In this document: piece after piece, positions 10,362-44,651 of the stretch
How the letters are laid out: each line of letters opens with the position of its first letter
How positions within the stretch are numbered: the first letter of the stretch is position 1
Source of the DNA: Phreatobacter sp.
GTDB taxonomy: Bacteria > Pseudomonadota > Alphaproteobacteria > Rhizobiales > Phreatobacteraceae
DNA: 51,037 bases
NCBI RefSeq assembly: GCF_030691135.1
Contig: NZ_JAUYFA010000084.1
Span: forward strand, 1-51,037
Reading direction: 5' to 3'
The notes under the pieces: generated by a model
What the model was told of the DNA's origin: nothing
Database searches by the model: none
Seen by the model: only the letters and a program-made list of their open reading frames with translations
Made by a program: the position numbers and the translations under genes

Positions 10362-11294
10362 TCAGCCGATGCCGAGCACGCGCAGCCAGAGGAGCGACGT
10401 GACGGCCGCCAGCAGGGTGGACAGCGCCACCGCCGTCGACGCGATGCCGACGCCCTGCCCGTAGCGTGCCGCGAACAGATAGGCGTTGATGCCCGCGGGC
10501 ATGGCGGCGAATAGCACGACGGTGCCGGTCCAGGACGGCGGCAGCGCGAAGACGTGGTGCGCGACGACATAGGCGATGGCGGGATGCACCAGCAGCCGCA
10601 GCACGCAGATCATCAATGCCACCGGAACATCGGTGCGCACGCCATAGGTCTTCAGCGACAGTCCCAGCGCGATGAGCGACAGGGGAATGGTGGTGTTCGC
10701 TACCATGTCGAGCATGGTCGCGGCCACCCCGGATGGCCGAAGGCCGAAGACCTGGAAGGCGACACCCGCCGCCATGGCGATGATCAGGGGATGGGTGGCG
10801 AGACCGCGGCCGAGCTTGACGAAGAGCGCGCCGCCGGTGGCGGCACGGGTGCCCTCCAGCATCAGGGTCGCCAGCGTCATGGTGATCGGCAGGTTGACCG
10901 CCAACAGCATGGCGATGGGAAAGGCCGCCTCCTCGCCATAGGCCTTGAGGATGATCGGGATGCCGATCAGCACGGTATTGGCCTGGCCCGTGGCGAGACC
11001 GGCGATCACCGCGTCGCCGCGGGAGCGGCGGAACAGGCCGGCCGCCAGGACCGTCGCCAGGCCCCAGACGATGGCCATGCCGGCGTAGTAGGCGATCCAG
11101 TAGCCCCAGGGGAAAACGCCGGGAAACACGGCCGCGGTGAGCAGCTTGAACATCAGCGCCGGGGCGCCGATGACGAAGAGATAGGAGGTCAGCCCTTCAT
11201 TGGCCCGCTCGCCGATCAGCCCCGCCAGCGCCGCCCCGTAGCCGAGGGCGACGAGCCCGAAGACCGGCGCGACGAGGAGCAGGAGTTCGACCAT
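10362..11294 (-). CDS. AEC family (auxin efflux carrier-like) permease
   Basis: A 310-residue hydrophobic protein with about ten membrane helices, of the AEC/membrane transport family (MdcF-like). It begins MVELLLLVAPVFGLVALGYG, contains a central GLATGQANTVLIGIPIILKAYG segment typical of the repeat, and ends with TSLLWLRVLGIG. Members move malonate, malate or other carboxylates through the inner membrane. The frame could start 18 codons earlier, but MVELL puts the first helix at the N-terminus as in relatives. No catabolic partner is adjacent; a response regulator is divergent from it. Confidence 0.87.
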   Translation of the reverse strand: MVELLLLVAPVFGLVALGYGAALAGLIGERANEGLTSYLFVIGAPALMFKLLTAAVFPGVFPWGYWIAYYAGMAIVWGLATVLAAGLFRRSRGDAVIAGLATGQANTVLIGIPIILKAYGEEAAFPIAMLLAVNLPITMTLATLMLEGTRAATGGALFVKLGRGLATHPLIIAMAAGVAFQVFGLRPSGVAATMLDMVANTTIPLSLIALGLSLKTYGVRTDVPVALMICVLRLLVHPAIAYVVAHHVFALPPSWTGTVVLFAAMPAGINAYLFAARYGQGVGIASTAVALSTLLAAVTSLLWLRVLGIG

Positions 11295-11367
11295 GGGGAT
11301 GCGCGGCTCGGTGAACGGAACCCGCGCAATAAACCATTTCTTCGTCATTCCGCGTTAGGCCTGTCGC

Positions 11368-35575: not shown

Positions 35576-36865
35576 TCAGCCCTGGCGGCGCGGGATCAGG
35601 CGGGTAACCTCGCGCGACATGTCGCGCAGCACCTCGTCCGGCGTCGCCTTCTGCTCGACGATGCGGGCGAGGTTGTCGACCATGACCTGCGTCACGCGGA
35701 CCGAGTTCTGGCCCGGGAAGGCGTACCACGGGATCATCAGGTGAACCTGCTTGGTGGCGGCCTGGAAAAGCGGGTTCGCCTTGTAGAACTCGCTGAGATA
35801 CATCGGATCGTCGATGGCGAGCTGGTTGCACGGCACATAGCCGGTGTTCTTCGTCATCAGCGTCGTGCCCTCGGCGGAGGTCGCGAACTTGATGAACTCC
35901 CAGGCGGCGGCCTGACGGGCCGGATCCTTGGCGGTCATCATGGCGCCGGCACCGCCGGTCGGCAGGCGGCCCTTCACCGGATCGATGACCGGCAGGATCG
36001 TGGTCTGCAGCTCGAAATTGCTGCCGACCATGCCGGAGACCTGGCGAACCTGCGCCGTGGTGCGGAACATCATGCCCATCTTGCCGGCGCCGAAGGACTG
36101 CAGGTCGGCATTGCCGGTGAGGTTCGGCATCTTGCCTTCCTTCACCATACGGTCGAGCAGGCGGAGAGCGGCGAGGCCTTCGGCGCCGTCGAAGGCGACC
36201 TTGCTCTCGTCCTCGGTCAACATCCGGCCACCATGGCCATAGAGCAGCGCCGAGAACATCCAGTCGTCACCCGGCCAGCGGAAGAACATGCCGGAATTGC
36301 CGTCGCCGAGGGCGGAGATCTTCGCCGCAAGGGCGATGACGCCGTCCCAGTTCGTCGGGAAGGTCTCGGCGCTGGCGCCAACCTTCTTGAGGAGATCGAC
36401 GTTGAGATAGCTGATCGGGTTGGACGTGGCGAAAGCCAGGCCGCACTGCACGCCGCCATGGAAGCCGAGGCCGAGGATCGGATTGGAATAACCGAGCTTC
36501 GCCAGATCACCCTCGCGGGCGAGGAAGGGCTTCAGGTCGGCGGCGATCGAACGCTCGGCGAACAGGCGCAGGCGGTTGAGGCCCTGGAACGAGACGTCCG
36601 GCATGCCGCCGGTGGTCGCCTGGCGCAGCACCAGCTGGGCGCCGTCCTCGTAGGTGGGCGTCGGATTGACATAGGTGACCTTCACCTTGTCGCTCTTCTT
36701 GTTGAAGGCCTCGGCGACGGCGTCCATGGCGGCCTTGAAGATCGGCGGCATGGAATAGTGGGCGACGACCTCGATGGTCTGGGCGCGGACCACGTTGGGC
36801 ATGGCGATGGTGGCGGCGCCGGCCATCAGGCCGAGCGTCGTACGGCGGGAGAGTTTCTGAGACAT
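35576..36865 (-). CDS. ABC transporter periplasmic binding protein (Ugp-like), paralogue 1
   Basis: A 429-residue extracellular solute-binding protein family 1 member. The signal is twin-arginine-like: SRRTTLGLMAGAATIAMP with cleavage near VRAQ. The mature part has VAHYSMPPIFKAAMDAVAEAF, VTYVNPTPTYEDGAQ, PDVSFQGLNRLRLFAER and the C-terminal GRLPTGGAGAMM and WYAFPGQNSVRV. It is the last gene of the operon, 79 bp after paralogue 2, to which it is plainly related along its full length. It belongs to the group that binds glycerol-3-phosphate or sugars; the ligand is not fixed by the sequence. Confidence 0.88.
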   Translation of the reverse strand: MSQKLSRRTTLGLMAGAATIAMPNVVRAQTIEVVAHYSMPPIFKAAMDAVAEAFNKKSDKVKVTYVNPTPTYEDGAQLVLRQATTGGMPDVSFQGLNRLRLFAERSIAADLKPFLAREGDLAKLGYSNPILGLGFHGGVQCGLAFATSNPISYLNVDLLKKVGASAETFPTNWDGVIALAAKISALGDGNSGMFFRWPGDDWMFSALLYGHGGRMLTEDESKVAFDGAEGLAALRLLDRMVKEGKMPNLTGNADLQSFGAGKMGMMFRTTAQVRQVSGMVGSNFELQTTILPVIDPVKGRLPTGGAGAMMTAKDPARQAAAWEFIKFATSAEGTTLMTKNTGYVPCNQLAIDDPMYLSEFYKANPLFQAATKQVHLMIPWYAFPGQNSVRVTQVMVDNLARIVEQKATPDEVLRDMSREVTRLIPRRQG

Positions 36866-36944: not shown

Positions 36945-38219
36945 TCAGGCGCGGGGCAGAAGGCGCGTGACGTCGCGCGCCATGTCGGCCAGCGCGACAT
37001 CGACGCTCGCCTTCTGCTCGACGACGCGCGAGACGTTGTCGGTGATGGTGGAGGAAATCCGCACACCATTGGCGCCGGGGAATGCGTACCAGGGCACCAT
37101 GATCGGCATCTGCCGGACGCCGGTCATGAACAGCGGATTGTCGCGGTAGAACTCGCCGAGATAGCGCGGATCGTCGGCGGCCAGCTGGTTGACCGGCACA
37201 TAGCCCGTGCCCTTGACCATGATGGCCGAGCCCTCCGGCGAGGTGCAGTAGCGCAGGAAACGGTACGCCGCCTGCTGCTTGGCGGGATCCTTGGACAGCA
37301 CCATGCCGGCGGCACCGCCGGTCGGCAGGCGGCCGCGGGCACGGTCTCCCAGCGGGAATTCCCAGGTAGCGAGATTGAAATTGCTGCCGAGCGAACGCAT
37401 CGCCTGGCGCAGGAACGCGGTCGACCAGAAATACATGCCGACCTTGCCGGCGGCGAAGGCCTGGGCGCCCGCTTCTCCCGAGAGCGCCGGCATGCCGCCC
37501 TCCTTGACCAGGCGGTCGAGCACGGTCAGGGACGCCTTCCCCTCGGGTCCGGCGAAACCGATGGTGCGCTCGGCCTCATCCATCATGCGGCCACCGAAGC
37601 CGAAGAGCAGCGCCGAATAGATCCAGTCGCCCTGCCAGCGGTAATAGGCGCCATGGACACCGTCGCCGAGCGCTGAGATCGTCTTGGAGGCGGCGATGAT
37701 CTCGTCCCAGGTCGTCAGCTTCCTGTCGGGATCGAGGCCGGCGCGCCGGAACAGGTCGGCATTGATGAAGATGATCGGATTGGATGTGGCGAAGGCGAGC
37801 CCCGCCTGGATGCCGCCCGCCGCCCCGATGCCGAGCAGCTCCGGCGTGTAGCCAAGCTTCGCACTGTCGCCCTCGCGCTTCAGCAACGGGGCGAGGTCGA
37901 CGGCCAGGCCCCGCTCGGCGATAACCCTGAGGCGGTTGAGGCCCTGGAACGTCAGGTCGGGCTGGCGGCCGGTGACCGCCTCGCGCAGCACCAGCTGGGT
38001 GCCGTCGTCATAGCTCGCCGTCGCCTGGCGGTAGCTGACCTTGACGTCGGACTGGGCCGCCATGAAGCCGGCGGCGAGCTGCTCCTGCACGTCCTTGAAG
38101 ACGGCCGGCATCGAGTAGTGGACGTCAATCTCGACCGGGTTGGCCAGCGCGAGGCGCGGCGCCGCGAGGGTGGCGGCCGTGGCGGCGAGCACCGTGCGAC
38201 GGGTCAGGCGGATCGTCAT
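36945..38219 (-). CDS. ABC transporter periplasmic binding protein (Ugp-like), paralogue 2
   Basis: A 424-residue family 1 binding protein with a Tat-like signal (TRRTVLAATAATLAAPRLA, cleavage after ALAN-P or near). Same blocks as paralogue 1: VHYSMPAVFKDVQEQLAAGF, YDDGTQLVLREAVTG, LTFQGLNRLRVIAERG, GLAFATSNPIIFINADLF, GRLPTGGAAGM and WYAFPGANGVRIS. It lies directly after the permease genes (37-bp gap). The two proteins may bind different ligands or deliver to the same permease; shared GLAFATSNPI and FQGLNRLR blocks point to a recent duplication rather than two acquisitions. Confidence 0.88.
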   Translation of the reverse strand: MTIRLTRRTVLAATAATLAAPRLALANPVEIDVHYSMPAVFKDVQEQLAAGFMAAQSDVKVSYRQATASYDDGTQLVLREAVTGRQPDLTFQGLNRLRVIAERGLAVDLAPLLKREGDSAKLGYTPELLGIGAAGGIQAGLAFATSNPIIFINADLFRRAGLDPDRKLTTWDEIIAASKTISALGDGVHGAYYRWQGDWIYSALLFGFGGRMMDEAERTIGFAGPEGKASLTVLDRLVKEGGMPALSGEAGAQAFAAGKVGMYFWSTAFLRQAMRSLGSNFNLATWEFPLGDRARGRLPTGGAAGMVLSKDPAKQQAAYRFLRYCTSPEGSAIMVKGTGYVPVNQLAADDPRYLGEFYRDNPLFMTGVRQMPIMVPWYAFPGANGVRISSTITDNVSRVVEQKASVDVALADMARDVTRLLPRA

Positions 38220-38256: not shown

Positions 38257-39108
38257 TCATCCCTTGAGGCCGGTCATGGTGATGCCTTCGATGAAGCGCC
38301 GCTGGGCGAGGAGGAAGGCGGCCACCAGCGGGATCGTGGTGATGGTCGCAGCCGCCATCAGGGCGCCGAAATCGTCGCCGGCTTCCTCTGTGCGGAAGTA
38401 GATGACGCCGAGCGCCGGGGTTGCCAGTTCGCCCTTGCCGGAGACGGCGATGAGCGGCCAGAACAGGTCGTTCCAGTGGGCCACCACCGAGAAGATCGCG
38501 AAGGCGGTGGCGGCAGGCCAGGCATTGGGCACGATGATGCGCCAGACGATGGACCATTCGCCGAGCCCGTCCATGCGGGCGGCGTGGATCAACTCGTCCG
38601 GCATGGCCCGGAAGAACTGGCGGAACATGAAGATGGCGAAGACCGAGATGGTCGAGGGCGCGATCAGCGCCGCATAGGTGTTGAGGATGCCGGTCTGGGC
38701 GAAGGCGATGTAGAGCGGGATCGCCGGGACGTGGGCGGGGATCAGCAGCCCCAGCATGACGAAGGCGAAGAGCGTCTCGCGGCCGCGGAAATTCAGCTTG
38801 GCCAGCGCATAGCCGGCGGGCAGCGCGAAGGCGAGCTGGAAGACGAGGATGCCGAAACAGACGATGACGCCGTTCAGCAGGTAGCGGCCGATCGGCACTT
38901 CGCTCAGCACCCGGCCATAGTTCTTCTCGAAGGCGAAGGTCTGCGGGATCAGCGACATCGAGGCCCGCCAGACCTCGTCGAGCGGCTTCAGCGAGACCGA
39001 GATCATCCAGATGTAGGGCATCAGGAAGATCAGGCCGAGGACCGAGAGCAGCACCAGCCGCGGCAGGTCGGCGATGAGGCTCTTGTCGTGTGGTGAGGAG
39101 GGGGTCAT
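38257..39108 (-). CDS. ABC transporter permease (UgpE/MalG-like)
   Basis: A 283-residue inner-membrane protein with six predicted helices. The EAA loop that docks on the ATPase is HAARMDGLGEWSIVWRIIVPNAWPA. It begins MTPSSPHDKSLIADLPRLVL and ends EGITMTGLKG, a MalG-type C-terminus. ATG 39108 follows the other permease's stop by 7 bp and has GAGG just ahead; a GTG two codons earlier is possible. It is the second permease of a heterodimer. Confidence 0.9.
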   Translation of the reverse strand: MTPSSPHDKSLIADLPRLVLLSVLGLIFLMPYIWMISVSLKPLDEVWRASMSLIPQTFAFEKNYGRVLSEVPIGRYLLNGVIVCFGILVFQLAFALPAGYALAKLNFRGRETLFAFVMLGLLIPAHVPAIPLYIAFAQTGILNTYAALIAPSTISVFAIFMFRQFFRAMPDELIHAARMDGLGEWSIVWRIIVPNAWPAATAFAIFSVVAHWNDLFWPLIAVSGKGELATPALGVIYFRTEEAGDDFGALMAAATITTIPLVAAFLLAQRRFIEGITMTGLKG

Positions 39109-39115
39109 CGGCACC

Positions 39116-40048
39116 TCACCCGTAATGGACGCGGCGGTCGAGCACGCGCGTCTGGAGGAGCATGAGGACCACGACGGCGCCGAGGAAGACGACGGTGATC
39201 GCCGCCGAGTAACCCATGCGGAAGAAGGTGAAGCCCTCGGTGTACATGGTGTAGAGCAGCACCTCGGAGGCCTTGTTCGGCCCGCCCTGCGTCAAGGTCG
39301 CGACGATGTCGAAGACCCGGAGCGAGCGGATCATCGTGATGGTCAGCACGAAGAGGCTGGTGGGGCCCAGCAGCGGCCAGGTCACCGTCCAGAAGCGCGA
39401 CCAGGCCGAGCGCACCCCGTCCACTTCCGCCGCCGCATAAAGGTCGCGCGGGATGGCGGTCAGACCCGCCAGGAACAGCACCATGTTGAAGCCGATCTGC
39501 TCCCACACGCCGATGATGGCGAGGGTCCACATGACGCTGTCGGAGGAGCCGAGCCAGTTCGGGCCGACGATGCCGAGGCCGCGGAGCGCCGCGTTTACCG
39601 GGCCGATTGTCGGGTGGAACATGTACTGGAAGGCGGTCGCCATCGCGACCATCAGCGAGACCACCGGCAGGAAGAACACGGCGCGGAAGAAGGTGCGCCC
39701 GCGCGTGCCGCTCTCGATCAGCAGCGCCAGCATCAGCCCGCCGATGATCGAGACAGGCGTCGTCACGGCGACGAAGAAGGCGGTGTTGCGGAACGAGGTG
39801 ACGAAGCCCCGGTCTTCCATCAGCTCGGCGAAATTGGCGAGCCCGACGAAGCGCAGCGCCGGCGCGCCCAGCTCATAATCGGTGAAGGCGATGGCGACGA
39901 CCGCAGCCGTCGGGATCAGCAACATCAGCACGAAGGCGAGGACGGCCGGGGCGGTCAGCAGCCAGGCGGCCAGCGCCTCGCCGCGATGGATCCGCTCGCC
40001 CGCCGGAGCCGCCGCGGCATAACCGCGGGGAAGCGCAACGTCAGACAT
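39116..40048 (-). CDS. ABC transporter permease (UgpA/MalF-like)
   Basis: A 310-residue inner-membrane protein with six helices: LLTAPAVLAFVLMLLIPTAAVVAIAF, then AVFFLPVVSLMVAMATAFQYM and the EAA loop AAEVDGVRSAWSRFWTVTWPLLGPTS. The start overlaps the ATPase gene by 8 bp and the stop is 7 bp from the next permease, so the set is one operon. It forms the channel with the UgpE-like partner. Confidence 0.9.
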   Translation of the reverse strand: MSDVALPRGYAAAAPAGERIHRGEALAAWLLTAPAVLAFVLMLLIPTAAVVAIAFTDYELGAPALRFVGLANFAELMEDRGFVTSFRNTAFFVAVTTPVSIIGGLMLALLIESGTRGRTFFRAVFFLPVVSLMVAMATAFQYMFHPTIGPVNAALRGLGIVGPNWLGSSDSVMWTLAIIGVWEQIGFNMVLFLAGLTAIPRDLYAAAEVDGVRSAWSRFWTVTWPLLGPTSLFVLTITMIRSLRVFDIVATLTQGGPNKASEVLLYTMYTEGFTFFRMGYSAAITVVFLGAVVVLMLLQTRVLDRRVHYG

Positions 40049-41225
40049 GCGCCGCCTCCGTGGGCTGGGGCTGCATCCCGCCGGCGCCGATGCGCGCCGC
40101 CGTCTCGCTGCCGATGAGACCGACGCGGTTGCCGACGGGATCGAAGGCGAGAAGGCGCCCGGCGAGCGGCGCGACCGTCAGCGTCTGGCGCGACGACGCG
40201 GTTTCCCAGGCCTCCGGGGAGAGGCGGAGGATGAGGTCGGACCCCTCGCGGGTCTCGCGGGCATAGACCAGCACTTCCGACCCGAGGAACTCGACATGGC
40301 CGACCGTCACAGAGATGCCCTGGGCGGCCAGCGTCAGATGTTCCGGCCTGACGCCGATGGAGAGCTTGCCGGTCAGGCGCGGCGCGACGAGGCCGCTCGG
40401 GACGCCGGCGACCGACACCCGGCCCTCGCCGTCGGCCTCGCCGGCCAGGATGTTGATCCGCGGCGAGCCGATGAACCTGGCGACGTCGATCGTCGCGGGC
40501 TGCTCGTAGACCTCGCGCGGCGAGCCGAAATGCAGGACATTGCCGCCGAGCATGACGGCGACCTTGTCGGACATGGTCATCGCCTCGGCCTGGTCATGGG
40601 TCACGTAGACGGTGGTGACGCCGATGCGCTTGTGCAGGTCGACGAGTTCGCGGCGCATGTCGTGGCGCAGGGCGGCGTCGAGATTCGACAGCGGCTCGTC
40701 CATCAGGAAGGCCTTGGGGTGGCGCACGATGGCGCGGCCGAGCGCGACCCGCTGGCGCTGGCCGCCCGAGAGCTGGCCGGGCCGGCGCTCCATCAGGTGA
40801 CCGATGGACAGGAGCTTGGCCGCCTGCGCGACCTCCTCCAGGATCGCCGCGCGGCGGGCGCCGGTGCCCGAGACGAAGCGGCCGATGAACGGCGCGCGCT
40901 CCAGGGTCGTGAGCCGGCGCATGACCAGTGGCAAGGCCATGTTCTGCTCGACCGTCATGTGCGGATAGAGCGCGTAGTTCTGGAACACCATGGCGACGTC
41001 GCGGTCGGCGGCGCGGATCCGGGTGACATCGCGCCCGCCGATCGACACCGCACCGCGGTCCGCCTGTTCGAGACCCGCGATGATGCGCAGGAGGGTGGTC
41101 TTGCCGCAGCCGGAAGGACCGACCAGCGAAATGAAGGATCCGGCATCGAAGGACAGCGACACGCCCTTCAGGACGCGCGTCTCGCCAAAAGACTTCTCTA
41201 TCCGGTCGAGGACGATTCCGGCCAT
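40041..41225 (-). CDS. ABC transporter ATP-binding protein (UgpC/MalK-like)
   Basis: A 394-residue ATPase. It begins MAGIVLDRIEKSFGETRVLKG. Walker A is GPSGCGKTT, Q-loop FQNYALYPHMTVEQN, signature LSGGQRQRVALGRAIV, Walker B AFLMDEPLSNLD, H-loop VYVTHDQAE. After residue 240 comes the MalK-type OB-fold regulatory domain (FIGSPRINILAGEAD, IGVRPEHLTL). An insertion near TTLERAPFIGRFVSGTG separates the helical domain from the usual UgpC. It is the first gene of the operon, 186 bp from the divergent phosphodiesterase gene. Confidence 0.92.
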   Translation of the reverse strand: MAGIVLDRIEKSFGETRVLKGVSLSFDAGSFISLVGPSGCGKTTLLRIIAGLEQADRGAVSIGGRDVTRIRAADRDVAMVFQNYALYPHMTVEQNMALPLVMRRLTTLERAPFIGRFVSGTGARRAAILEEVAQAAKLLSIGHLMERRPGQLSGGQRQRVALGRAIVRHPKAFLMDEPLSNLDAALRHDMRRELVDLHKRIGVTTVYVTHDQAEAMTMSDKVAVMLGGNVLHFGSPREVYEQPATIDVARFIGSPRINILAGEADGEGRVSVAGVPSGLVAPRLTGKLSIGVRPEHLTLAAQGISVTVGHVEFLGSEVLVYARETREGSDLILRLSPEAWETASSRQTLTVAPLAGRLLAFDPVGNRVGLIGSETAARIGAGGMQPQPTEAAHV

Positions 41226-41311
41226 GAATTCCCAACTCCCAGGATGGGGTGGGGGTACGCGGCTTTCACGACAGCACGGCAACGCACGAATGACGTTAAG
41301 CCGACGCACGG

Positions 41312-41329
41312 ACAACGGCTGGATGACGG
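41312..41329 (-). promoter_or_regulatory. Degenerate PHO-box-like sequence facing the ABC operon
   Basis: Read on the minus strand it is CCGTCAT, four bases, CCGTTGT: the same 7-4-7 layout as a PHO box. The first half has one mismatch and the second three to the CTGTCAT consensus. It lies 87 bp upstream of the ATPase gene start. Confidence 0.35.
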
Positions 41330-41346
41330 CAGCTCAGCCGGCGCAC

Positions 41347-41364
41347 CTGTCGTCGCGCTGTCAT
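41347..41364 (+). promoter_or_regulatory. PHO box (candidate PhoB site) upstream of the phosphodiesterase gene
   Basis: CTGTCGT, CGCG, CTGTCAT: two 7-bp repeats 4 bp apart, as in the classic PhoB box. The only mismatch to the consensus repeat is one base in the first half. It sits 48 bp before the start of the phosphodiesterase gene and 122 bp from the start of the divergent ATPase gene. A possible -10 (TAGTCA, 41375-41380) lies 10 bases beyond, the usual distance for PhoB promoters, which lack a -35. Confidence 0.62.
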
Positions 41365-41411
41365 GCTGGATGCCTAGTCAGCCGGCGAACCGCACCCTAG
41401 GGAAGGCCCTC

Positions 41412-42236
41412 ATGCTCATCGCCCATCTGACCGATCTCCACATCCGCCCGCACGGTCTTGCCGCCTACCGGACGGCCGAGACCAACATGCTGACCGAGCG
41501 TGCCGTCGATGCGGTCCTGGCGCTCGACCCGCGACCGGATTGCGTGCTCATCACCGGCGACCTCACCGACAACGGCCTGCCGGCAGAATACGAGAACCTG
41601 AAGCGGATGCTCTCCCGTCTGCCGATGCCGGTCTGGCTCATCCCCGGCAACCATGACCGCCGCGAGAACCTGAAGAGCATCCTCGGCGACTATCCGGGCC
41701 TGTCCGACGATCCCCATTTCGCCCAGTGGGCGACCGACCTCGGTCCCGTCCGCATGATTGGCCTCGACACCGTCGTTCCCGGTTCCGGCGCCGGGCGCCT
41801 CTGTGCCGACAGGCTCGCCTGGCTGGAGGCCCGCCTGTCGGAAGACACCGCCAAGCCGACCATCGTCGCCTTGCACCACCCGGCCTTCGTCTGCGGCATC
41901 CATCACATGGACCGCATCAACCTGCTCGAGGGCAAGGCGGAACTCGAGGCGATCATTCGCCGTCACCCCCAGGTCGTGCGAGTCCTCTCCGGTCACCATC
42001 ACCGGCCGATCCAGGCGCTCTTCGCCGGCACCCTCGCCATGGTGGCGCCGAGCGTCGCCCATCAGGTGGTGCTGGATCTCAACGACAAGCCGTCGGGGCA
42101 GTTCAACTTCGAGCCGGCCGCCTTCCACCTGCATCTGTGGACGGAGGCTGCCGGCCTCGTCAGCCACACCGCCTATGTTGAGAAGGCGCCGGGCCCCTAC
42201 CCCTTCCTGCGCGATGCCGACTATCCCGGCGCGTGA
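41412..42236 (+). CDS. GpdQ-like glycerophosphodiesterase (binuclear metallophosphoesterase)
   Basis: A 274-residue protein, the same length as Enterobacter aerogenes GpdQ. Metal ligands known for GpdQ are found at the same numbers: D8, H10 (HLTDLHI), D50 (ITGDLTDNG), N80 with H81 (PGNHDRR), H156 (ALHHPAF), H195 and H197 (SGHHHRP). It should hydrolyse glycerophosphodiesters and other phosphodiesters in the cytoplasm; cyclic-nucleotide (CpdA-like) activity is possible. ATG 41412 gives the family start. It is divergent from a Ugp-like importer and has a PHO box upstream, which fits phosphate scavenging. Confidence 0.87.
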   Translation: MLIAHLTDLHIRPHGLAAYRTAETNMLTERAVDAVLALDPRPDCVLITGDLTDNGLPAEYENLKRMLSRLPMPVWLIPGNHDRRENLKSILGDYPGLSDDPHFAQWATDLGPVRMIGLDTVVPGSGAGRLCADRLAWLEARLSEDTAKPTIVALHHPAFVCGIHHMDRINLLEGKAELEAIIRRHPQVVRVLSGHHHRPIQALFAGTLAMVAPSVAHQVVLDLNDKPSGQFNFEPAAFHLHLWTEAAGLVSHTAYVEKAPGPYPFLRDADYPGA

Positions 42237-42287: not shown

Positions 42288-43292
42288 TCAGTCGTAGCGC
42301 AGGTCGGTCGCCTTGCCACGGAACACCCAGTAGCTGAAGGCCGAATAAGCGACGATGACGGGCACCACCACGAGGGCGCCAACGAGGATGATGATCAGGC
42401 TCTCGGGGGCCGACGCCGCGGCATAGATGGTCAGCCGGTCGGGCACGATGAAGGGATAGAACGAATAGGCGAGACCGAAGAAGGCCAGCGTGAAGATGCC
42501 CGCCGAGCCGGCAAAGGGCACCCAGGCAAAACGGTCCCGCGCATGCGGCTGGTTGGCCAGCACGACCCATACCACCGTGGCAAGCACCAGGGCCATTAGC
42601 GGCAGGGGCGACAGGAACAGAAACTCGGGCAGCGAGAACCAGCGGTCGAAGATCCGCGCCGAGACGAGCGGGGTCACCACCGAGATCACCGCGAAGCCAA
42701 TCATCGTGAGGACCAACGCGACGCGGGCCCGCCTCACCGCCCGCCGCTGCAGGTCGCCGTCGGTCTTGATGATCAGCCACGTCGCACCCATCAGCGTGTA
42801 GCCGGCCGCCACGCAGACCGCGGTGACCAGCCCGAAGCCGACGGTCGCCAGGCTGCGGTCCAGCCCCATCACATAGAGCCCGAGCATGTAGCCCTGCGAC
42901 AGCGCGGTCAGCAGCGAACCGGCGAAGAAGACGCGGTCCCAGGTCGGCTTCCAGCCGGCCTCGGCCTTGGCGCGGAACTCGAAGGCCACGCCGCGCATGA
43001 TGAGCGCGATGAGCATCACCGTCACCGGCAGGTAGAGCGCCGAGAGGATCGCCCCGTGGGCGACCGGGAATGCGACGAGGAGAAGGCCGACGGCAAGCAC
43101 CAGCCAGGTCTCGTTCGCATCCCAGAACGGCCCGATCGAGGCCACCATGCGATCACGCTCCTCGGCACGGGCGATCGGGAACAGGATGCCGACGCCGAGG
43201 TCGTAGCCGTCGAGGATCACATAGATCAGGATCGACAGGCCCATGAGGGCGGCGAAAGCGACGGGCAGCCATACGGCGGGATCATCGAACAT
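42288..43292 (-). CDS. cydB: Cytochrome bd ubiquinol oxidase subunit II
   Basis: A 334-residue membrane protein with eight or nine helices. It starts MFDDPAVWLPVAFAALMGLSI with the typical VILDGYDLGVGILFP, then FGPFWDANETWLVLAVG (as SIGPFWDANETWLVL) and LMGATWLIIKTDG. Subunit II of E. coli is 379 residues; this shorter form is like the cyanide-insensitive (CIO) branch. It ends 6 bp after cydA and no CydX-like small gene fits in the 51-bp gap that follows. Confidence 0.95.
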   Translation of the reverse strand: MFDDPAVWLPVAFAALMGLSILIYVILDGYDLGVGILFPIARAEERDRMVASIGPFWDANETWLVLAVGLLLVAFPVAHGAILSALYLPVTVMLIALIMRGVAFEFRAKAEAGWKPTWDRVFFAGSLLTALSQGYMLGLYVMGLDRSLATVGFGLVTAVCVAAGYTLMGATWLIIKTDGDLQRRAVRRARVALVLTMIGFAVISVVTPLVSARIFDRWFSLPEFLFLSPLPLMALVLATVVWVVLANQPHARDRFAWVPFAGSAGIFTLAFFGLAYSFYPFIVPDRLTIYAAASAPESLIIILVGALVVVPVIVAYSAFSYWVFRGKATDLRYD

Positions 43293-43298
43293 GGCCGG

Positions 43299-44651
43299 TC
43301 ACTCCGCCGCTACGAAGGCGTTGGGATGCGTGGTCGGGCCGGTCTCGATCGACTGCGGCTTTGCACCCTTGCGCGCCAGCAGGAACAGCGTCGCCACATA
43401 GGCCGCCAGCAGCAGGACGTAGACGACGAGGTAGGCGGCGAGCGTGGCGGCGATCATCGCCGCGGGCACCGCCGACACAGCCTCCGATGTCCGCAGCACC
43501 CCGGTCACCAGCCAGGGCTGGCGGCCGATTTCGGTGACGTACCAGCCGGCGAGTGTGGCGAGCCAGCCTGAAAAGGTCATGCCGACCAGCGCCCGGGCGA
43601 GCCAGGGATGGGGATCGCCGCGGCGCCAGAGCCACCATGCGGCGACCCAGGACACCGCCAGCATGAGCAGGCCGACACCGATCATGATGCGGAAGGCGAA
43701 GAAGACCGGAGCCACCGGCGGATGCCGCCCCTCGAAGTCGTTGAGCCCTGGAACGACGCCCTGCGGGTCGTGCTTCAGGACGAGGCTCGCCCCATAGGGA
43801 ATGCCGATCTCGAACCGGTTCGAGCGCGTCGCCTCGTCAGGCAAGGCGAAAAGGATGAGCGGCTTCGCCGGACCAGTCTCCCAGTTGCCCTCCATGGCGG
43901 CGACCTTCTGCGGTTGATGCTCCAGCGTGTTGAGCCCGTGCATGTCACCGACGAAGATCTGCAGCGGAATGAGGATCGCGGCGCAGCCCACACCAAAGCG
44001 CAATGCCGCGAGGACCGCAGGCGAACGATCGTCGCGCAGCCAGCGATAGGCCGACAGTCCGGCGATCAGGAAGGCCGTCGTCAGCCCAGAGGCGAGCAGC
44101 ATGTGGGTCAGGCGATAGGGCATGGACGGATTGAAGATGATCTCCATCCAGTTGGTGGCATGCACCACCCCGTTGCGGATTTCGAATCCGGCCGGCGTGT
44201 GCATCCACGAGTTCAGCACGATGATCCAGAACGCCGACAGGGTCGTGGCACCCGCGACCAGCACGGTCGCGAGGGTGTGGACCCATCCCGGCACCTTGCG
44301 GAAGCCGAACAGCATGATGCCGAGGAAGACGGCCTCGAGGAAGAAGGCGGTCAGCACCTCATAGGCGAGGAGCGGACCGGCGACATTGCCGACGCGCTCC
44401 ATGAAGCCGGGCCAGTTCGTGCCGAACTGGAAGCTCATGGTGATGCCCGAGACGACGCCGAGGGCGAAGCTCAGCGCGAAGATCTTCACCCAGAAATGGT
44501 AGACGTCCATCCACTTGAGGTCTTGCGTCGCGCGGTAGCGCAGCTTGAAGAAGACCAGGGCCCAGCCCAGCGCGATGGTGATCGTCGGGAAGAGGATGTG
44601 GAACGAGATGTTGGCGCCGAACTGGATGCGCGCGAGAAGGATCGGGTCCAT
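43299..44651 (-). CDS. cydA: Cytochrome bd ubiquinol oxidase subunit I (CIO-like short form)
   Basis: A 450-residue protein with nine membrane helices (E. coli has 522). H18 (ISFHILFPTITIALGW) is the heme b595 ligand position; the quinol-binding loop has HQPQKVAAMEGNWETG, and GWYVTEIGRQPW is the C-terminal signature. The missing stretch corresponds to the long Q-loop, as in CioA. It reduces oxygen to water using quinol and works at low oxygen or with cyanide present. AGGAGG stands 7 bases before ATG 44651. It forms one operon with cydB. Confidence 0.95.
   Translation of the reverse strand: MDPILLARIQFGANISFHILFPTITIALGWALVFFKLRYRATQDLKWMDVYHFWVKIFALSFALGVVSGITMSFQFGTNWPGFMERVGNVAGPLLAYEVLTAFFLEAVFLGIMLFGFRKVPGWVHTLATVLVAGATTLSAFWIIVLNSWMHTPAGFEIRNGVVHATNWMEIIFNPSMPYRLTHMLLASGLTTAFLIAGLSAYRWLRDDRSPAVLAALRFGVGCAAILIPLQIFVGDMHGLNTLEHQPQKVAAMEGNWETGPAKPLILFALPDEATRSNRFEIGIPYGASLVLKHDPQGVVPGLNDFEGRHPPVAPVFFAFRIMIGVGLLMLAVSWVAAWWLWRRGDPHPWLARALVGMTFSGWLATLAGWYVTEIGRQPWLVTGVLRTSEAVSAVPAAMIAATLAAYLVVYVLLLAAYVATLFLLARKGAKPQSIETGPTTHPNAFVAAE

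Follow-up and report, generated by a model that had tools for sequence, protein, structure and literature searches.

A predicted GpdQ-type phosphodiesterase gene and a divergent two-binding-protein ABC importer operon flank Pho-like arrays in Phreatobacter

In the 51,037-nucleotide stretch of Phreatobacter DNA analysed here (the window, which is the whole of contig C28; the genome that we searched comprises 4.2 Mb in 116 contigs), a predicted phosphodiesterase gene and an ABC importer operon are transcribed away from each other across a gap of 186 bp, which raises the question of what the importer would deliver to the enzyme and under what control. The enzyme gene (41412..42236, plus strand) encodes 274 amino acids and was assigned by sequence match and fold model as a predicted GpdQ-type binuclear metallophosphodiesterase, and the gap (41226-41411) lies between its ATG at 41412 and the start of the minus-strand ABC ATPase at 41225. 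On the minus strand, the operon runs from the ATPase (40041..41225, 394 amino acids) through two permeases (39116..40048 and 38257..39108, the latter with an uncertain start, a GTG at 39114 being possible) to two paralogous substrate-binding proteins, SBP1 (36945..38219) and SBP2 (35576..36865), which are 54% identical, and it ends at 35576. These tandem binding-protein genes, two in number, had been missed by an earlier sequence-only reading of the locus. Convergent with the enzyme gene are two minus-strand genes (42288-44651) that look like those for the subunits of a cytochrome bd oxidase, presumably CydB and CydA. A close relative of the enzyme is present in each of the 12 genomes of the family group, our own counted, and so are relatives of the binding proteins. 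We propose that the locus is a PhoB-controlled organophosphate scavenging module that imports diesters and then cleaves them in the cytoplasm, a reading to which we give a probability of roughly 0.8. When phosphate is short, PhoB would bind two oppositely oriented direct-repeat arrays within the 186-bp gap and switch on both outward transcription units; the CUT1-family importer, with its two paralogous binding proteins, would bring small diesters of phosphate into the cytoplasm, where cleavage by the GpdQ-type metallophosphodiesterase would yield a phosphomonoester plus an alcohol and so supply phosphorus metabolism. We infer each of these elements: the binding of PhoB, the induction, the transport and the catalysis, and also that the ligand is a diester.

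Alignment placed the seven metal ligands of GpdQ (D8, H10, D50, N80, H156, H195, and H197) at identical numbers in the 274-residue enzyme, as the sequence-only reading had said, and all seven are invariant across the 32/32 aligned relatives. Since E. coli CpdA has these ligands too, they are necessary but not sufficient for the GpdQ type. Among PDB sequences, the best match was GpdQ (2.4e-35; 31% identity), followed by Rv0805 (4.7e-20). An AlphaFold2 model of the enzyme (pLDDT 92.5) was compared with two structures: over 269 columns it matched GpdQ 3d03 with a TM score of 0.92 at 1.5 A, and it matched Rv0805 (3ib7) more weakly (TM 0.83, 2.8 A). The enzyme passed no NCBIfam model cut-off, there being no GpdQ model among those listed, and no signal peptide was seen when we looked for one by eye. 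Together, alignment and model support a GpdQ-type fold and active site for this predicted enzyme.

The best-scoring curated model was that of SpdA (148.3 bits, below its cut-off of 400), which would fit a different ligand within the same scheme: a nucleotide-type diester, such as a 2',3'-cyclic nucleotide or a short oligonucleotide from RNA decay, with the enzyme acting as a class III nucleotide phosphodiesterase and Pho regulation kept. SpdA of S. meliloti has been reported as a 2',3'-cNMP enzyme (PMC4222275, available to us in part), and SpdA and Rv0805 are class III metallophosphoesterases like the window enzyme, which nevertheless differs in falling below the SpdA cut-off and in matching the Rv0805 structure more poorly than that of GpdQ. 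The CpdA model gave 87.5 bits, far under its cut-off of 225, and Klebsiella GpdQ likewise falls under the SpdA and CpdA cut-offs. His217, common to the enzyme and GpdQ, is Val in E. coli CpdA, which speaks against a nucleotide enzyme, but since it is also present in the aligned SpdA-like operon enzymes, it cannot tell GpdQ apart from these enzymes. We consider the nucleotide-type ligand improbable, if the foremost of the competing readings, and return to it where the importer and the enzyme tree bear on it.

Control by phosphate starvation had been predicted from a repeat in the gap. This two-unit PHO box, CTGTCGTCGCGCTGTCAT (CTGTCGT-CGCG-CTGTCAT; 41347..41364, plus strand), is indeed present, is oriented to the enzyme gene with the ATG 47 bp on, and has one mismatch to a pattern whose half-site, CTGTCAT, was taken as given rather than fitted. 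The pattern scan of the window returned four sites with at most three mismatches (mean 1.99 expected), of which this is the sole one with fewer than three, and genome-wide there are three one-mismatch sites and 15 with at most two, against 4 for a reversed-pattern control. At the genome-wide density, the chance of a one-mismatch site within a given 186 bp is about 1.3e-4. By eye, the other two one-mismatch boxes (C37 and C111) adjoin no obvious phosphate genes, so a one-mismatch match alone proves nothing. A plus-strand box with 1 to 4 mismatches stands at the matching place in 13/13 other Phreatobacter upstream stretches, which amount to 11 distinct ones (L041 repeats L008 and L048 repeats L012) and among which 3-4 mismatches are weak on their own. 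The gap also holds a second array that the sequence-only reading did not contain: six Pho-like tandem units at 11-bp spacing (41268..41329, minus strand), oriented to the importer operon with the ATPase start 42 bp on.

We compared both arrays with shuffled sequence (200-500 shuffles per stretch, several tests each, the related species not being independent), using dinucleotide shuffles throughout except for plain letter shuffles of the E. coli ugpB, Klebsiella, and Pinisolibacter arrays. Across the gaps of ten Phreatobacter species, the two-unit box reached p ≤ 0.010 in 10/10, and the six-unit array was equalled by 0/300 shuffles in 9/10, with p = 0.05 in the remaining one (L009). Controls picked independently of the pattern, namely E. 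coli ugpB and a ugpBAEC-like operon of the same genome, scored positive, and no Pho-like array was found by the same scoring upstream of the genome's own phoR (two-decimal p values for these two host stretches, the second importer on C112, and the collinear operons described below are such that 0.01 may be up to 0.015). Three phn-type sites (L083, L084, and L089) were discarded as positive controls because choosing them by pattern match had made them circular; two of the three precede PhnD-type binding proteins over cut-off and L089 does so by eye only, which is mild support. The genome encodes PhoB on contig C79 (343.6 bits, cut-off 296.2). A conserved CTAG-CAGC block (approximately 41374-41382) 3' of the forward box could be the -10 region of the enzyme promoter.

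The search of related genomes for the same gene order and box, which the sequence-only reading had suggested, bore out the box but not always the order, since enzyme and importer lie apart in two sister species, on different contigs in G006 and about 14 kb from each other in G011. In both species a two-unit box still precedes the enzyme gene (p 0.006 in each), and a six-unit array still precedes the importer (0/500 shuffles each). Downstream of the importer, on the same strand and after 420 and 618 bp, respectively, follow pstS, pstC, pstA, pstB, and phoU, each over its curated cut-off in G011 and assigned by likeness in G006; each pstS is preceded by one weak two-unit box (p 0.010 and 0.014). 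Since these importers have their own array and pst neighbours, their phosphate link is independent of the enzyme. The conservation of both arrays in the genus, their retention when the genes are apart, and the pst linkage, together with a PhoB over cut-off, make a predicted Pho-regulated organophosphate module, and with it the phosphate-starvation control that had been proposed, well supported at the level of sequence.

What the importer carries is less clear-cut. It had been called Ugp-type, a label that holds as a best match only, since every component falls under its NCBIfam Ugp cut-off: the UgpC/MalK-like ATPase (UgpC, 382.7 bits against 432), the UgpA-like first permease (139.9 against 335), the UgpE-like second permease (116.9 against 297), and SBP1 and SBP2 (UgpB, 69.6 and 50.1 against 411). 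We rejected the identification of the importer as Ugp itself on these scores and because a better-scoring, separate ugpBAEC-like operon lies on contig C65, where UgpB, two permeases, and an ATPase follow in that order with a Pho-like array; its UgpB is the genome's best (374.8 bits), itself short of the cut-off of 411. The excerpted text of PMC12718374 describes UgpB as binding phosphate through two Tyr and two Ser with a Trp clamp, and the glycerol hydroxyls through Gly, Glu, and Arg. In our 36-protein alignment, SBP1 keeps the phosphate residues (Tyr, Ser, Ser, Tyr), SBP2 keeps all but the third, where Ser becomes Thr, and both retain the Gly. At the column of Glu89 (E. coli numbering), the window binding proteins have Leu with Asn adjacent, and at that of Arg397 they have Ser/Thr with Arg two columns before, the alignment being uncertain at both places. 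Since the phosphate residues are kept and the glycerol-reading Glu and Arg are not, the pocket looks made for a phosphate ester, though perhaps not glycerol's, and the prediction of a ligand that carries glycerol loses ground. Glycerophosphodiesters are our best single guess for the ligand, at somewhat less than even odds. The best solved relatives of SBP2 are the 7c0x-7c1x series, which we take to be the U3G-binding protein discussed in PMC12718374 and which favours the nucleotide-type ligand.

The E. coli ugpBAEC system resembles the window in being a CUT1 importer with a Pho-like array and the same phosphate quartet; the window differs in its sub-cut-off models, its two binding proteins, its lack of the glycerol-reading residues, and its divergent layout. 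This resemblance raises the possibility of a plain glycerol-3-phosphate or sugar-phosphate importer, with the enzyme a coregulated neighbour whose task in the cytosol is unrelated, for example the breakdown of cAMP. Its nearest models (UgpA, UgpE, and UgpC), the kept phosphate ligands, two Trp that stand at the UgpB clamp position in one alignment (in gapped columns, and placed differently in the 36-protein alignment), and the separation of the genes in two sister species would fit this explanation; the genome, however, already has the C65 operon with its Pho-like array, the enzyme is far under the CpdA cut-off, and importer and diesterase are found together in most foreign loci (below). We regard it as rather unlikely and prefer the import and cleavage of diesters.

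A second importer of the window type in the same genome (C112:11-7761, locus L073) is codirectional with a PF00149 metallophosphoesterase gene (289 amino acids) and with PhnC-, PhnE-, and PhnD-like genes, in what appears as a hybrid Ugp-like/phosphonate-type operon; its Pho-like array scores 16/28 (p 0.01). The genome also encodes one GDPD-fold protein, at C89 (PF03009, 64.2 bits, cut-off 23.6; gene L097 3020-3775, for which the model of cytosolic GDPD gave 51.9 bits against a cut-off of 264), which adjoins neither the window importer nor the C65 operon. Since this protein remains, we set aside the loss of UgpQ as a driver. The fold of UgpQ is unrelated to that of GpdQ.

The available part of PMC4926365 describes UgpQ as a cytosolic diesterase and names glycerophosphoethanolamine as the natural GpdQ substrate that was modelled. 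The sequence-only reading had predicted a replacement of UgpQ by a binuclear metallohydrolase, which the loci of other bacteria, further alphaproteobacteria among them, show to be misframed. Klebsiella/Enterobacter aerogenes GpdQ (PDB 2dxl, 3d03) shares with the window enzyme its length of 274 amino acids, fold, metal ligands, and His217-Gln218, and its gene likewise adjoins Ugp-like permeases, an ATPase, and a binding protein with a Pho-like array upstream. In a 5.4-Mb Klebsiella pneumoniae record (labelled plasmid), a protein scoring 617 bits against the crystallised GpdQ is encoded between Ugp-like permease genes and genes for a Ugp-like ATPase and binding protein, so the pairing of GpdQ with an importer is not peculiar to the window; inositol-catabolism genes follow the locus. 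The one E. coli IncF plasmid that we examined has the same gene order, although its ATPase is missing from the gene table and was recognised by tblastn; of the 247 plasmid records with a match to the enzyme at E ≤ 1e-30, 191 come from Escherichia (L103, L104). The binding protein of Klebsiella and the one adjoining the enzyme in Pinisolibacter (L019) share 49% identity, and both loci have a four-unit Pho-like array ahead of the first permease (20/28, 0/500 letter shuffles). Unlike the window, the GpdQ locus has its enzyme inside one operon with a single binding protein, and the window importer belongs to another CUT1 branch, SBP1 being 25% identical to the Klebsiella binding protein.

Close relatives of the enzyme were found in 33 loci, and in 26 of these a Ugp-like importer adjoins: 6 are divergent Phreatobacter loci, and the 20 others (20/27 outside that divergent set) have two permease genes, a binding-protein gene, and the enzyme gene, in that order, on one strand. 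The remaining seven are without an importer, one of them (L033) being cut at a contig end. An ABC neighbour was found for 20/26 non-Phreatobacter enzymes versus 7/57 more distant genes (loci L013-L038). Pho-like arrays in forward orientation precede 14 of the 20 collinear operons (printed p 0.01 or less), with reverse-only arrays in 2 and none in 4. In one of the close-relative loci, a PehA-type ester hydrolase gene, of another diesterase fold, adjoins the enzyme (L028:8872-10404; 908 bits, cut-off 900), and in another (L038:9096-12697) PhnC-, PhnD-, and PhnE-like genes were read directly 3' of this four-gene series of two permeases, binding protein, and enzyme. A class-wide draw returned the enzyme at E ≤ 1e-30 in 74/241 genomes. 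ABC-panel matches lie in the flanks (up to 1.5 kb) of 12 of the 29 loci taken from this draw, 9 of them PhnS-like though under the PhnS cut-offs; the 17 others, of a set in which a contig end shortens at least 3 loci, indicate that the enzyme family is also found without such a neighbour. In Sinorhizobium chiapasense (L102:4322-10718), an enzyme relative (43%) and an Opp/Nik-type importer are found within a C-P lyase gene cluster.

Seen from the importer, the window's type occurs in 19/241 genomes of the class-wide draw, our own counted. Outside the genus we collected 21 loci, leaving out one match on a small contig (G017); they are not independent, as three genomes contribute 2, 2, and 3 and two genera 3 and 2, and their genes were called by a codon-score script, with the L179 operon called by tblastn. 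A diesterase-type enzyme is encoded in or beside the operon in 16/21, GpdQ/SpdA-like and within the operon in 13, another metallophosphoesterase two genes off in 1, and PehA-like and adjoining in 2 (L162:12472-14037 and L170:5206-6771, by tblastn), which counts against a plain glycerol-3-phosphate importer with an unrelated neighbour. Four of these operon enzymes were scored with the SpdA model, and three (241, 243, and 210 bits, the fourth giving 144) exceed the window enzyme, which favours a nucleotide-type ligand. The other 5/21 loci are without a diesterase; L174, L175, and L176, importers of this kind, have in common an upstream gene of about 210 amino acids and a DeoR-like regulator (by reading), which suggests from gene content that they may have another substrate.

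Only 4/21 of the importer operons outside Phreatobacter (L179 left out) have Pho arrays at p ≤ 0.01, so a link to phosphate is not inherent to the importer family, and we discarded Pho control as its ancestral trait. CUT1 importers are mostly sugar systems, several related operons adjoin LacI-, GntR-, or DeoR-like regulators (by sequence reading), and most related operons lack a Pho array; on such grounds the window importer could be a sugar transporter with no phosphate link, the repeats being chance or the sites of another response regulator. The conservation of the arrays within the genus, their separability, and the pst linkage speak against this, and we hold it to be very improbable.

A tree of 89 enzymes tentatively places the window enzyme and GpdQ in one 42-row set (96/89) that comprises 21 Ugp-operon enzymes, GpdQ included, and 10 from Phreatobacter, although GpdQ has a long branch, the root is a midpoint, and the bootstrap is unsettled. 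This position, apart from the SpdA-like set, weighs against a nucleotide-type ligand, as does the closer match of the enzyme model to GpdQ than to Rv0805. Elsewhere, 14 rows adjoin an importer of the window type, and 12 of them, plus L179, are in another set (13 rows, 99/98). The tree omits seven duplicate loci, L103, matches under 150 amino acids, and rows interrupted by a stop; it includes L126 and L161, which are one gene, and L179 is labelled 'none', its operon having been recognised later. Tentatively, the simplest reading of the tree is that Phreatobacter paired a Ugp-operon-clade enzyme with a different importer.

A comparable response appears in Phaeobacter MED193, where, in the part of PMC10132767 available, a predicted phosphodiesterase (MED193_11288) and sugar-ABC proteins (11293 and 11308) rise in low phosphate. 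In the phoB mutant, the diesterase 11288 and the ATPase 11308 were undetected, and the binding protein was still raised (3.27, at 0.01% abundance). The spacing of the locus tags 11288-11308 would fit a diesterase, a binding protein, two permeases, and an ATPase, presumably in the collinear arrangement, and no substrate is assigned in that text. A literature search over titles and abstract starts, with most subscription-journal GpdQ papers outside its reach, returned no description of a GpdQ-importer operon among the matches listed, and the available part of PMC4926365, the one paper to join GpdQ and ugp, gives none either.

Altogether, the locus looks like a variant of a little-described kind of phosphorus scavenging with similar pairs in other bacteria, the Phreatobacter twist being a Ugp-operon-clade enzyme with a two-binding-protein importer. 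A bolder generalization, which we think more doubtful than not, is that bacteria have a general strategy of importing phosphodiesters and then cleaving them, in which GpdQ-type enzymes do the cytosolic part and which was repeatedly assembled with unrelated ABC importers (Ugp-like, two-binding-protein CUT1, PhnS-like, and, in a C-P lyase cluster, Opp-like). The Phreatobacter importer would then be devoted to phosphodiesters, with a ligand other than a glycerol ester. In the literature seen in part, GpdQ figures mainly as a promiscuous catalyst put forward for cleaning up organophosphates, and a physiological partner is not described there. Our findings single out a group of sugar-type ABC importers whose cargo is probably phosphodiesters, and since GpdQ and its relatives lie beside importers with Pho-like switches, their natural substrate becomes directly testable through the ligand of the neighbouring binding protein.
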